A stretch of DNA of 64,000 nucleotides from Planctomycetota bacterium. Lineage in GTDB: Bacteria > Planctomycetota > MHYJ01 > JACQXL01 > JACQZI01. The position numbers and the translations under genes were made by a program. Under the pieces are notes generated by a model. It ran no database searches. It had not been told where the DNA came from and was given only the letters and a program-made list of their open reading frames with translations. The DNA is taken from NCBI GenBank assembly GCA_016207825.1, contig JACQZI010000010.1:124001-188000 (forward strand), written 5' to 3'. Below, one piece after another: positions 30,989-61,103 of the stretch. Positions within the stretch are counted from its first letter, which is position 1, and every line of letters starts with the position of its first letter.

Positions 30989-32121
30989 AAATCGCGCTAG
31001 TAATCTATCACTATTCCGACTCCAAAGGCGGGGTGGAAAGATATGTATCTGATTTAAGCAAAGGATTAATTAAACTAAGGAATGAAGTCCATATCTTTTG
31101 CCATACGATTGACGTCCCTGTCCCAAAAGAGATAATCTTCCACCAGGTGCCGATATCCGGTAAGTTCTATTCTCCGTTAAAACTTGCATCTTTTGCCGAG
31201 AATTCCGCGCGCCTGCTAAAGAAAGAAAAGTTCGATGTCATCCAAGGATTCGGCAGGACATATTACCAAGATATTCTCCGTTTCGGGAGTGGAATTCACT
31301 GGGAATACCTGAAACAAAGGCATCCATCAATGGCTAACCCAATCGGCAGGTTTATACAATTGATTAATCCGCATAACCGGGCGATTATGCACTTGGAAAG
31401 GAAATCACTCCTGCCGGGCAACTATAAAAAGGTTATCTGTATTTCCAACCTGGTCAAGCGCGAAATCCAGCGATATTATAATGTGCCGGAATACGATATC
31501 ACGGTGATTTATAACGGGATAGACCCGGAACGCTTTACGCCGGACAACCGCACCAAATACCGCGATTCAATCCGCAAGGAACTTAATATAACCGAGAAAG
31601 ACTTAATGGCGCTTTTTGTCGGATCGGGATTCGAGCGCAAGGGATTGCGGTATGCCATAGAAGGAATCGCCAGGGTGGATAAAGAAATCCCGATTAAACT
31701 GGTTGTCATCGGGAATGGCGCGACAGGTAAATATAAATTCCTGGCAGATATAAAAGGTATAGGAGACAAAGTCATTTTTGCGGGGACAAAATCAAATATC
31801 GAGCAATACTATGCCGCATCGGATATTTTTATATTTCCGAGCCTATACGATGCCTTTGGTACGGCGGTATTGGAAGCAATGGCAAGCGGATTGCCAAGCC
31901 TGGTGAGCAATCAATCCGGCGCTTCAGAAGTAGTCTTCCACGGAACCGATTCCTTTATAATAAATCCTCATAAGACTGATGAGCTTACCAAATATCTCAC
32001 TGACTTATCCAACCCTGCCCGCCGGGAGAATATAGGTAATGCCGCGCGCCAAACAGCGTTAAAGTATTCATTCGTAAACAACCTTAATTCTACTTTGGAA
32101 GTTTATAAGAAAATTACATAA
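30985..32121 (+). CDS. Glycosyltransferase family 4 (WaaG-like)
   Basis: The 378-residue enzyme has two GT-B domains. The N-terminal YHYSDSKGGVERYVSDLS and the C-terminal AASDIFIFPSLYDAFGTAVLEAMASGLP carry the family's donor-binding E-x7-E pattern. FVGSGFERKGLRYAIEGIA is typical of LPS glucosyltransferase I (WaaG). The start overlaps the GT2 gene by 4 bp. It is the last of the four LPS genes. Confidence 0.88.
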   Translation: MKIALVIYHYSDSKGGVERYVSDLSKGLIKLRNEVHIFCHTIDVPVPKEIIFHQVPISGKFYSPLKLASFAENSARLLKKEKFDVIQGFGRTYYQDILRFGSGIHWEYLKQRHPSMANPIGRFIQLINPHNRAIMHLERKSLLPGNYKKVICISNLVKREIQRYYNVPEYDITVIYNGIDPERFTPDNRTKYRDSIRKELNITEKDLMALFVGSGFERKGLRYAIEGIARVDKEIPIKLVVIGNGATGKYKFLADIKGIGDKVIFAGTKSNIEQYYAASDIFIFPSLYDAFGTAVLEAMASGLPSLVSNQSGASEVVFHGTDSFIINPHKTDELTKYLTDLSNPARRENIGNAARQTALKYSFVNNLNSTLEVYKKIT

Positions 32122-33531: not shown

Positions 33532-34422
33532 ATGGAAAACTCAATAAAGCAGTTTCTCGCTTATCTTAACGTTGAATGCGGTTTATCCAACAATACGCTT
33601 TCCGCCTACCGCAGTGATCTGGTAAAGTTTACCGAATACCTTAAAGGGCAGGGAATAACGAGCCCATCCGGAATATCTCCCGAAGATATCATGCGTTTCA
33701 TGGAAGCCTGCAGAAATCGAGGCGCTTCGCATACTTCGCTGGCAAGGTATCTAAGCTCTATCAAGATGCTTTTCAAATTCCTCTCTTCACAGGGCACGAT
33801 AAAAGGAGATGCGACTATGCTTTTGGATACGCCTAAAATCTGGCACCGGATACCGGATGTCATGTCTTATCCTGTTATCCAAAAACTGCTAGATGCGCCG
33901 GATACCAAGAAACCTTTAGGGATACGAGACCGGGCAATCCTGGAAACTATGTATGCCACCGGGATGAGAGTTTCTGAAGTGGTCAATATGAAAACCATTG
34001 ACTTAAGCCTTGAAGGAGGCTATTTACGCTGCATCGGCAAAGGACAGAAAGAACGCGTCGTGCCAATCGGCGAAGAAGCGATTAAATATGTCAAACTCTA
34101 CCTTGATAAAGTGAGACCTAATTTAAAGAAAGAAAAACGGCCTTATGAAAACCTGTTTCTGGACAGGATAGGCAAGCCTTTAAGGAGGGAAACAATCTGG
34201 AAGATGATTCACCGTTATGGATTACTTGCCGGGATTAAAGAGAAACTGCATCCGCATATCCTGAGGCATTCATTTGCCACCCATTTATTGGAAGGCGGAG
34301 CGGATTTGAGATATGTCCAGGAGATGCTGGGACATTCCAATATCGCCACTACCCAGATTTATACCCACGTGGATAAGGAAAGGCTGAAGGCAATCCATAA
34401 GAAATTCCATCCGCGGGCTTAA
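33532..34422 (+). CDS. xerD: Tyrosine recombinase XerC/XerD
   Basis: The 296-residue protein has the usual length of Xer recombinases, which resolve chromosome dimers at dif. An N-terminal SAM-like domain (QFLAYLNVECGLSNNTLSAYRSDL) precedes the catalytic domain. Active-site residues are visible: Arg in ATGMRVSEV, His-x-x-Arg in HPHILRHSFATHLL, His in LGHSNIATTQIYTHV and the nucleophile Tyr in QIYTHV. XerD is slightly preferred over XerC. The ribosome site is weak. The normal length argues for a housekeeping role and not a phage integrase, although an odd tRNA locus lies 400 bp downstream. Confidence 0.9.
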   Translation: MENSIKQFLAYLNVECGLSNNTLSAYRSDLVKFTEYLKGQGITSPSGISPEDIMRFMEACRNRGASHTSLARYLSSIKMLFKFLSSQGTIKGDATMLLDTPKIWHRIPDVMSYPVIQKLLDAPDTKKPLGIRDRAILETMYATGMRVSEVVNMKTIDLSLEGGYLRCIGKGQKERVVPIGEEAIKYVKLYLDKVRPNLKKEKRPYENLFLDRIGKPLRRETIWKMIHRYGLLAGIKEKLHPHILRHSFATHLLEGGADLRYVQEMLGHSNIATTQIYTHVDKERLKAIHKKFHPRA

Positions 34423-34462: not shown

Positions 34463-34699
34463 TTATGATTTTACGGTCAAACAGGTAACAGTCCGGTCAA
34501 CTCCCGGAACTTTTTGTAGCTGCGTCACGATTGTTTTGCCTAATTCATTGACATCATTCGCCTCAAGGTAAGCAATAACATCATGAAGTCCGGTCACTAA
34601 ATGCGCCTGTTTTACTCCCTTAACCTTGCGGATATCCTCAACGGCATTCATGCCGTTACCGGATTTAACGTTGATAAACACATATGCGCCTACTCCCAT
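34463..34699 (-). CDS. Stand-alone Lrp/AsnC ligand-binding (RAM) domain protein
   Basis: The 78 residues match only the C-terminal ligand-binding domain of Lrp/AsnC regulators (GAYVFINVKSGNGMNAVEDIRKVKGV and HLVTGLHDVIAYLEANDVNELGKTIV). There is no helix-turn-helix, so it cannot bind DNA alone. Such stand-alone domains form decamers or dimers and bind amino acids. AGGAGG precedes the start. A palindromic repeat lies upstream at 34745-34793. Confidence 0.88.
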   Translation of the reverse strand: MGVGAYVFINVKSGNGMNAVEDIRKVKGVKQAHLVTGLHDVIAYLEANDVNELGKTIVTQLQKVPGVDRTVTCLTVKS

Positions 34700-34804: not shown

Positions 34805-34840
34805 TCTGGCGGCCGGGATTTGAACCCGGGGCCTTGCGCG
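34805..34840 (-). pseudogene. tRNA-Pro-like 3' half
   Basis: On the minus strand the segment starts with GCAAGG (3' side of an anticodon stem), then a perfect T arm (CCGGGTTCAAATCCCGG) and a 3' acceptor strand CCGCCAG plus A. It shares 23 identical bases with the intact tRNA (34808-34830 and 34942-34964). There is no adjoining 5' half on its immediate upstream side. Confidence 0.75.
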
Positions 34841-34938
34841 AAAAGGGTCTGGGGAAAACACCCAAGAGAGGGGTCTTCTCCAGCATTATTTATTTTCTTT
34901 CAACATCTCCTCTCGCAATTTTAACAAGTTAAGCCTAG

Positions 34939-35014
34939 TCGGGCGGCCGGGATTTGAACCCGGGACCTCTTGCACCCCAAGCAAGCACGCTAAGCCAGGC
35001 TGCGCTACCGCCCG
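34939..35014 (-). tRNA. tRNA-Pro (anticodon GGG)
   Basis: The cloverleaf is complete: acceptor CGGGCGG/CCGCCCG, D arm GCGC...GCGT, anticodon stem CTTGC/GCAAG with loop TTGGGGT (anticodon GGG) and T arm CCGGG-TTCAAAT-CCCGG. The discriminator is A; CCA is not encoded. Outside the gene the acceptor stem continues: AGTTAGCCTAGT before it can pair with ACTAGGCTTAACT after it (one bulge), which adds about 12 bp. This is unusual for a tRNA precursor. Confidence 0.93.
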
Positions 35015-35121
35015 ACTAGGCTAACTTTCTCATTTTAACCATCCATTAACAAAAAGACCAGCAATATTTCTTTCTGGAAAACCACTATGCCGTAGGGGTT
35101 TTCCCGAACCTTTTCCACACT

Positions 35122-35171
35122 CCCACCAAGCAAGCACTCCCGCCAAGCGGGACAGGCTACACTACCACCCG
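35122..35171 (-). pseudogene. tRNA-Pro-like 5' half
   Basis: On the minus strand CGGGTGGTAGTGTAGCCTG matches the first 19 bases of the intact tRNA-Pro at most positions. A small CCCGCTTGGCGGG hairpin is inserted in the D loop. The segment continues through AGTGCTTGCTTGG (5' side of the anticodon stem and loop) and then loses similarity. Its acceptor pairs at 6 of 7 positions, and its anticodon stem at 5 of 5, with the 3' half at 34805-34840. Confidence 0.65.
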
Positions 35172-35246: not shown

Positions 35247-35651
35247 TTAATGCTTATTTGCGAATTGGCAGATTTCTATCAATACTCTGCTAGAGTCTTT
35301 AGGGCTGAAGAAGTTTACGAGATATCCGCCCGCGCCTGTCTTTGGCTCAGGATAAACGAGTTTGTAACCCTTGGAAACCATATCAGCCATGGCGCTTTTG
35401 ATATCAGCCACCTCGAAACATATATGGTGAATTCCTTCCCCCTTGTTCTGGATGAATTTTGCCACGTTTTCATTTCCTTCCATCGGCTCAATAAGCTCTA
35501 TGACTGTATTATCCAATGTAAGTTTGGCGGTTTTGACCTTCATTGACAAGACTTCTTCGAAATGAGGTGATAATCCCAATCCATTCTGATAAAAAGGAAG
35601 GGTGTTTTCTATTTTCCTTACCGCAACACCGATATGATTAAGTTTTATCAT
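35247..35651 (-). CDS. mce: Methylmalonyl-CoA epimerase
   Basis: The 134-residue VOC-superfamily enzyme interconverts the two epimers of methylmalonyl-CoA. Metal ligands are visible as His in KLNHIGVAV, Glu in TVIELIEPM, His in GIHHICFEVAD and Glu in VLIEICQ. The mutase gene lies 314 bp upstream with a small lipoprotein gene between them, so they form one functional unit for propionyl-CoA/succinyl-CoA exchange. Confidence 0.93.
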   Translation of the reverse strand: MIKLNHIGVAVRKIENTLPFYQNGLGLSPHFEEVLSMKVKTAKLTLDNTVIELIEPMEGNENVAKFIQNKGEGIHHICFEVADIKSAMADMVSKGYKLVYPEPKTGAGGYLVNFFSPKDSSRVLIEICQFANKH

Positions 35652-59144: not shown

Positions 59145-61103
59145 TTATTCTGAAATCAACCTGATATAATCCCTCGACATAAAACCATCTTTAACGGGAT
59201 AAAACTGCCCGAAAGATTTCAATCCGGCAAGGTGTTTTTTAATCGTTTCAATTTTAGGCATAAGCTTCAGTAATTCTTCTTCCGGACCGGGATCCTTCGG
59301 TTTCTGGAATCTTTTATTCATCTCGGAAACCTTATTGAAAAGATTCTCCATCAATTCAACATATTTCACCCAATCCATATACGACACAAAAGTTTTATTA
59401 GCATCAATTTTGTTCTTGATCAGTATTTTGGCGAAATCCGCATCAGCCAGCAAAGAGCCTTTGTTTTTACCGGCAAGCGCATCCGCAACCGTGCGAAGAT
59501 AATCAGCTGGAAAAGCAAACACAAAGGTATCATTGGTAAAGAAATATCCGGCCAATTCCTTCCCTGCCGGCGCTTCGCCTTCGTCTTCTTCCATCCCCAT
59601 ACCACCGCCGCCAAAATTAGATTCGACTATGTGCAAAGTAACCCCATTATAGTCTTTCTCTTTCAAGCTGACAAATCCGCCTTCGGCAAATATCTTTTTT
59701 ACAACCTGGTCATGAGCTTTTTTAAACTTATCTGCCTGTTTGATATTCCCGATAATTGCAATCTTCATCGGGAAAAAGCTCGTTAAATCCATTGGATCGG
59801 CTTTGCCCGCATTCGGTAAATCCTCCAATATCGCAAATTCGCTCCCGAAAGCTCCGATGATATCATCCTTAATCTTAAGCCCAATCTCTTCTTCGCCCGA
59901 CTGCATTTCTTTCATCATCATATCAAATTCCTCTTTGGGCACCACTTTGGAAAGCACATCCATCACTTCATCATAGATTTCCGTAGGGGAAACAGCCATG
60001 CCTAAATAAAGAAGCGTTTCCTTGGGAACAGCCTTCATGGTATTGAATTCTGCGGTAGCTGAAGAAGAAAGTATTTTCCATATTCCACGCTTGGCGCCTG
60101 GAATATCGAGATAAGTAAAACCAACCATCCCATCTCCTTCAAAGCGGCTTGAACCGGCTAAGCTCTTCAAATCACCCAGTCCGGTAAGTTCAATCACCTT
60201 TTCCACAGTCTTGTTTAACTCATCTATCGCTTCCGGTGAAGTTGAACCGTATTTCATGTTTTCTTTAACAATCCATTGCTTAAGCATTACAACCAACGGC
60301 GAGACATTGACAAAAAACGTCTGGAGCCTTTCTTCGCCTATTTCAGCAACTATTTTCTTATAGGAAGCAACCGTATTCAAAGACTTATTTGCCCCTTCGC
60401 CTTTATAATTGTCAATCACCTTCTTAAATCCCTTTTCCCCGTAAGCCAGGAAAAAGATGTCATCCATATAACCGTATGAAACGTTGAGAGATACTTTCTT
60501 TTCATAGAACGTAAAATATGAAACTTTTTTGTATTCATCTGCTTTTTTATAAATCTCTTTTTCGGTCAGCTGGGTGCAAATTTTATCTATCAGGTTGTCT
60601 AGCGCCTCCTTATTGGAACCCGCACGGGCAAGAAAAACCACGTGGGGGACAGGAGTAATATCTTCAACCTCAACTTCTTTCTTCACATAATCATCCGCTT
60701 CCTCATCCCATTCATACTTGGTCACTTTTTTTGTGCCGGTTTTTAATTCAATAGTGTCCAGGATAAAGGCAACCTGACCGCTGAAAACCGTTCCGAGCGC
60801 AGAAGTGATTTCTTTCAGCGAAATCTGGGTTTTTGCAGTAACCTCTTTTTCGAATTCTTTTTGTATCAACTCCATCGCCTTATCCGTAAACTTTTTGACC
60901 TCTGGATCATTCCACAAGTTATTTATAAAAGATTTTTCTATAACATCACTTACGCGTGCCATATCATCAATTGAATAATACACATAGACATTTTCCGGAA
61001 CAAAGCTGTCAAAATTAGGCTTCATTTCCGGCGCCTGTGCTCCTAAGAAAAGGCACAGCACTATTGCCATGCACAGGGCCGTTAAAACGGTCAGTTTTTT
61101 CAT
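59145..61103 (-). CDS. Secreted DUF3352-like protein
   Basis: The protein has about 652 residues from ATG 61103 (MKKLTVLTALCMAIVLCLFLGAQA, signal peptide), chosen over the earlier in-frame ATGs because AGGAG is then 7 nt away. The remainder resembles DUF3352-type proteins: FVPENVYVYYSIDDMARV near the start, then ALGTVFSGQVAFILD, PHVVFLARAGSNKEALDNLIDKI and repeats of similar blocks up to VAIIGNIKQADKFKKAHDQV. The function of this family is unknown; it may be a periplasmic scaffold. Confidence 0.75.
   Translation of the reverse strand: MKKLTVLTALCMAIVLCLFLGAQAPEMKPNFDSFVPENVYVYYSIDDMARVSDVIEKSFINNLWNDPEVKKFTDKAMELIQKEFEKEVTAKTQISLKEITSALGTVFSGQVAFILDTIELKTGTKKVTKYEWDEEADDYVKKEVEVEDITPVPHVVFLARAGSNKEALDNLIDKICTQLTEKEIYKKADEYKKVSYFTFYEKKVSLNVSYGYMDDIFFLAYGEKGFKKVIDNYKGEGANKSLNTVASYKKIVAEIGEERLQTFFVNVSPLVVMLKQWIVKENMKYGSTSPEAIDELNKTVEKVIELTGLGDLKSLAGSSRFEGDGMVGFTYLDIPGAKRGIWKILSSSATAEFNTMKAVPKETLLYLGMAVSPTEIYDEVMDVLSKVVPKEEFDMMMKEMQSGEEEIGLKIKDDIIGAFGSEFAILEDLPNAGKADPMDLTSFFPMKIAIIGNIKQADKFKKAHDQVVKKIFAEGGFVSLKEKDYNGVTLHIVESNFGGGGMGMEEDEGEAPAGKELAGYFFTNDTFVFAFPADYLRTVADALAGKNKGSLLADADFAKILIKNKIDANKTFVSYMDWVKYVELMENLFNKVSEMNKRFQKPKDPGPEEELLKLMPKIETIKKHLAGLKSFGQFYPVKDGFMSRDYIRLISE

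Follow-up and report, generated by a model that had tools for sequence, protein, structure and literature searches.

The window analysed here is a 64,000-nucleotide stretch of a planctomycete genome (GCA_016207825.1, contig JACQZI010000010.1, positions 124,001 to 188,000; hereafter the genome is G000), and on its minus strand it carries three tRNA-Pro sequences in succession: a 5' part (35171-35122), comprising the acceptor 5' strand, the D-arm and the start of the anticodon arm, an intact and presumably functional tRNA-Pro(GGG) gene that encodes no CCA (35014-34939), and a 3' part (34840-34805), comprising the anticodon 3' strand, the T-arm and the acceptor 3' strand. The nested arrangement described in the first-pass annotation is therefore confirmed, with all three pieces at the positions and on the strand given there. 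ARAGORN and Rfam find only the middle sequence as a tRNA (Pro, anticodon GGG, RF00005, 60.1 bits). In local alignment to the intact gene, the 5' part matches its 5' half with a score of 116 (shuffle mean 64, 0/1000) and the 3' part scores 136 (shuffle mean 50, 0/1000), the latter being a 30-nt direct repeat, 93% identical, at a spacing of 134. The outer pieces pair with each other at 6/7 positions of the acceptor and 5/5 of the anticodon stem, as judged by inspection, but this pairing is inherited, since both pieces copy one tRNA, and is not separate proof of a split gene.

Closer inspection shows further features that the first-pass annotation had not described. The D-loop of the 5' part contains a 15-nt palindrome, TCCCGCTTGGCGGGA (35138-35152), where the intact gene has GCTTA, and similar palindromes sit in other tRNA relics of this order. 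A 17-nt near tandem duplication (GCTTGGYGGGAGTG; window 35118-35148, repeat D2) inside the 5' part joins this palindrome and the anticodon region, while the 3' part has a variable loop shortened by 2 nt. The two spacers, spacer 1 (35015-35121) and spacer 2 (34841-34938), are inverted relatives of each other over nearly their whole length, about 105 nt (compared over 35121-35015 and 34938-34834; score 130 versus mean 61, 0/1000; duplex -64 versus -40 kcal/mol, 0/500), so that the insert can fold as a long imperfect hairpin capped by the tRNA. The intact gene also lies in a perfect 15-nt inverted repeat (34932-35022; arms 35022-35008 and 34946-34932) that includes the acceptor stem plus 8 flanking bases on each side (flank complementarity p = 0.003). 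The hairpins that had been noted on both sides of the intact tRNA are real, at 35108-35072 in spacer 1 and 34881-34853 in spacer 2, and the first 35 nt of spacer 1 have a weak residual likeness to a tRNA 3' half (p = 0.03-0.05). Dispersal of the insert as a MITE is not supported, as no other copy of the spacers is found in the genome and the specific hairpin pattern occurs once.

Three genes lie near the locus. A methylmalonyl-CoA epimerase gene (35247-35651, minus strand; TIGR03081, 122.8 bits) provides a synteny anchor in relatives. A stand-alone Lrp/AsnC ligand-binding domain gene (34463-34699; 78 aa, PF01037) lies next to the tRNA, and its best relative in the order is in the genome G002, elsewhere. 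The Xer recombinase gene (33532-34422, plus strand) lies 383 bp from the 3' part.

The first-pass annotation offered three readings: one tRNA split in the anticodon loop by a 281-nt intron-like insert, tandem duplication with decay, or an attachment-site scar, the last with the nearby Xer gene in mind. These readings are partly supported, in that insertion into one tRNA is close to the explanation we favour, whereas the specific mechanisms fare less well. Group I and II intron models had been suggested as a check on the split-gene reading, and no Rfam intron family or ribozyme core matches the insert at gathering thresholds or at E <= 10. ARAGORN at default settings does not recognise the joined halves with any junction that gives a 7-nt loop, nor was a spliced outer tRNA found with its intron options; only at a lowered threshold does it report an implausible Ala. 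The genome has 46 RF00005 matches, with intact tRNA-Pro genes for GGG, CGG and TGG, so an outer tRNA is not needed, and the intact CGG gene elsewhere also rules against the 3' part being the relic of a needed Pro(CGG) tRNA. Although the complementary spacers could hold the halves together for cis splicing or trans assembly, the D-loop palindrome and shortened variable loop argue against this, and bacteria lack the archaeal splicing endonuclease pathway. We regard a genuine split tRNA as very unlikely.

An attachment-site scar, left by a tyrosine-integrase element that entered the tRNA 3' end and was almost wholly deleted, is similarly improbable. The 3' part is a direct repeat of the tRNA 3' end, as integrases leave, but only 98 bp lie between the repeats and the 5' part is unexplained. 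The Xer gene is the housekeeping host XerD (TIGR02225, 367 bits), has an orthologue (63% identity) near the same epimerase gene in the relative G004, and is not judged part of the element; related loci carry GIY-YIG genes and not integrases.

It is also conceivable that the outer halves and hairpins form a maintained structured RNA that controls or protects expression of the inner tRNA, as the fold of the whole stretch is stable (z = -3.6). However, the structure is not conserved at the orthologous locus, its stability comes largely from inverted repeats and inherited tRNA stems, and there are no covariation data, and we consider this reading very doubtful.

Relatives and other nested tRNA genes

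A comparison with relatives had been proposed beforehand, with two or three plain tandem tRNA genes at this site as the outcome that would count against the nested reading. In the relatives G004, G006 and G007 a single tRNA-Pro(GGG) follows the epimerase gene, without a nested pair; the same-genus genome G001, which is 56% complete, lacks the epimerase and any strong tRNA-Pro(GGG) match. In G004 and G006 a GIY-YIG gene lies between the epimerase gene and the tRNA, although neither has a 5' part in front of it. In G006, and at the tRNA-Pro(GGG) of the relative G005, a 3' part of the same tRNA lies downstream, split in its T-loop by palindromes.

A second nested case exists in G000. The tRNA-Leu(TAG) gene at positions 8638-8719 of contig C10 (in the extracts L046 and L201) lies inside a GTCCCGATGAAAAA/TTTTTATCGGGATG inverted repeat that replaces the anticodon arm of an outer tRNA-Leu, whose acceptor (7/7), T-arm (5/5) and variable arm look intact by inspection; this pairing could also be taken in favour of a structured RNA. 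Further tRNA-like 5' fragments (GAGCGGGGTAGCTCAG, GCCCCCGTAGCTCAACCCC) occur around tRNA-Lys(CTT) and tRNA-Arg(TCT) (L046 1800-1570, minus strand). On contig C8 (42536-42962; L064), tRNA-Ser(GGA) and tRNA-Ser(CGA) lie between strong inverted repeats of their flanks (z = 7.3 and 5.0), made of AAAGTTTCAGGTTAAA-type sequence. Short TCCCGA..TCGGGA palindromes are about 26-fold enriched genome-wide (78 versus 3 in the control pattern), and such palindromes replace or interrupt arms of the tRNA relics. Two of the form TCCCGAT..ATCGGGA lie in the window (31688-31714 and 59747-59773; 0.03 expected), the first inside a glycosyltransferase-like ORF.

GIY-YIG genes and tRNA parts

To ask whether the arrangement recurs, we examined the unbiased tRNA sets of G000, G003 and G004, three genomes of this order. 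Among their 123 tRNAs, 12 have their own 5' part upstream and 7 their own 3' part downstream; none has the reverse placement, and shuffles give about none. A larger set of 146 tRNAs, enriched for GIY-YIG loci, gives 15 and 10 versus 0 and 0. Beyond the order only 25 tRNAs of other Planctomycetota were examined, and these show no such parts.

Small GIY-YIG genes sit beside tRNAs, and five of the nine in G000 lie within about 210 bp of a tRNA (binomial P about 7e-9). In ten loci from a profile search for GIY-YIG ORFs, the ORF ends within -35 to +9 nt of the downstream tRNA (71 nt for Leu-CAA, whose ORF is cut short), and in all ten the same tRNA's 5' part lies just before the ORF. The Asp, His, Leu-TAA and Leu-GAG loci show the mirror type, with a 3' part, whereas several other tRNAs with GIY-YIG neighbours (for example Asn, Val-CAC, Gln and Phe) show no detectable part. 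The clearest locus, L303 in G002, is the one with the full nested order of 5' part, GIY-YIG ORF, intact tRNA-Ser(CGA) and 3' part, with nearly the same 30-nt palindrome in the anticodon loop of both outer pieces. Two successive 5' parts lie upstream of tRNA-Val(GAC) in G000 (contig C7, 297951-298500; L049), one without an ORF and one with a GIY-YIG ORF, suggesting repeated insertion at one tRNA, and a decayed GIY-YIG gene with three in-frame stops lies about 1.1 kb from tRNA-Leu(GAG) (contig C10, 203329-203529).

The cassette ORFs carry the GIY-YIG catalytic domain (PF01541, 46-73 bits on three of them), and its Y, Y, G, R, H and E residues are invariant in six. Their tree does not cluster by genome (23 changes, shuffled mean 22.6), as expected for mobile or old paralogous genes; since no clean pair of occupied and empty strains was available, this leaves transfer to empty alleles undecided. 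A phage origin of the cassettes has no support, with one weak phage hit and one viral contig.

Break points were read by eye, and many lie in the T-loop, for example at GGTT|CAAATCC in Pro-GGG of G005 and G006, Met of G003 and Leu-GAG of G000, and after GGTT or GTTC in the 5' parts of Pro-CGG, Ala-CGC and Arg-TCT. Others end in the anticodon or variable arm (Val, Ser, Leu-CAA). The T-loop breaks fit the motif RAWTSGAAC, the reverse complement of T-loop GTTCSAWTY, published for the phage T6 GIY-YIG enzyme SegB (PMC13096335), and this motif occurs in 15 of 45 tRNAs of G000.

Discussion

Because of this recurrent architecture we propose, with reasonable though not full confidence, that the tRNA-Pro locus is a decayed footprint of small GIY-YIG homing-endonuclease cassettes that target tRNA genes. 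In this model the enzyme would cut a tRNA gene in or near the conserved T-loop, and repair of the break through tRNA homology would copy the cassette in with duplicated tRNA sequence, so that one complete tRNA remains as a rescue copy, and the cell survives, while the outer pieces decay and collect palindromic hairpins. Here such an element would have interrupted the resident tRNA-Pro(GGG), with later loss of the endonuclease ORF; the middle tRNA is the functional gene and the outer pieces are relics. What our analysis demonstrates is the architecture, its direction and its association with GIY-YIG genes, whereas cutting and mobility, neither of which was assayed, and a common origin for this ORF-less locus are inferences. 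A search of all frames of the insert with hmmsearch found no ORF remnant (best E = 1.1), so that the assignment of this locus rests on architecture and relatives only. In addition, the 3' part has an unbroken T-loop, unlike most 3' relics, G004 and G006 have the GIY-YIG gene but no 5' part in front of it, several GIY-YIG genes beside tRNAs show no tRNA part, the inverted relation of the spacers is not explained, and the genomes are draft assemblies, mostly from metagenomes. The locus is real and, as part of an order-wide pattern, unusual.

The main alternative is ordinary tandem duplication of two or three promoter-tRNA units (about 130-155 bp) followed by decay of the outer copies, with palindromes gained by chance and no endonuclease involved at this locus. 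Collinear direct repeats (D1, D2 and D3, at spacings 134, 145 and 140), including TTNTGTTAATGG upstream of both the 5' part and the intact tRNA, are in keeping with this, as is the weak trace of a 3' half after the 5' part, and the upstream tRNA-Asp copy in the same genome shares the flank CCGACAC with the intact gene. However, random decay should also leave 3' parts upstream and 5' parts downstream, and none is seen against 19 and 25 in the two tRNA sets. Nor does duplication explain the GIY-YIG genes between part and whole, and relatives have single tRNAs here. We therefore consider it unlikely, although it keeps some support at this locus.

A more far-reaching possibility, which we put forward tentatively and as somewhat less likely than not, is that this order hosts a family of minimal chromosomal GIY-YIG elements that use the nearly universal tRNA T-loop as target, enter tRNA genes of any isotype, and carry or create a complete rescue copy of the very gene they break. 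These would be natural home-and-rescue elements, of which the nested tRNA-Pro is an old, ORF-less one. The arrangement suggests that essential tRNA genes can be invaded again and again without loss, by a layout, breaking the gene and keeping a complete copy, that engineers use in home-and-rescue gene drives. It gives a chromosomal setting for tRNA-cutting GIY-YIG enzymes so far studied in phages, explains odd half-tRNAs that gene finders skip, and gives a simple search rule, namely same-isotype 5' parts upstream and 3' parts downstream of intact tRNA genes. Our literature search found phage and fungal analogues but no bacterial tRNA case, although its coverage was incomplete and this is not proof of novelty; the locus is best regarded as the footprint of a variant of free-standing GIY-YIG homing elements that live in tRNA genes and leave a complete tRNA.

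Comparison with known systems places these loci beside several others. Group I introns in bacterial tRNA anticodon loops are also insertions in a tRNA gene, sometimes with a homing endonuclease (PMC3984707), but here there is no ribozyme core and no splicing is needed, because a complete tRNA copy is present. Integrative elements with attachment sites at tRNA 3' ends likewise restore the tRNA and leave a 3'-end duplicate, but no integrase is found at our loci, which have a GIY-YIG ORF instead, and 5'-part duplicates are at least as common. Rickettsia-type palindromic elements and REP repeats share with the palindromes described here their short, dispersed nature and insertion in genes and RNA relics; those in G000 have a TCCCGA/TCGGGA stem with variable loops, and their relation to known families was not examined.

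Closer parallels are provided by free-standing homing genes. The SegB enzyme of phages T4 and T6 (PMC13096335, PMC2988022) is a GIY-YIG homing endonuclease often encoded next to tRNA genes, cuts inside tRNA genes with a T-loop-like motif, and causes duplication of a tRNA/segB segment by homologous recombination; the T6 enzyme drives tandem amplification of a tRNA-Tyr/segB segment (PMC13096335). It belongs to phage genomes and segB lies in a tRNA intergenic region and not between parts of one tRNA, and we found no one-part-plus-whole tRNA layout described for it, whereas the ORFs here are chromosomal and 80-110 aa, about one GIY-YIG domain. In fungal mitochondria, as in cob and atp6 of Endoconidiophora resinifera (PMC6279837), free-standing homing genes leave a full gene plus a partial duplicate; these are mitochondrial protein genes, with LAGLIDADG ORFs in the cob case, and neither tRNA nor bacterial, but the order of complete gene, degenerate homing ORFs and duplicated C-terminal segment of the same gene follows the same logic as that of complete tRNA, ORF and 3' part seen here.
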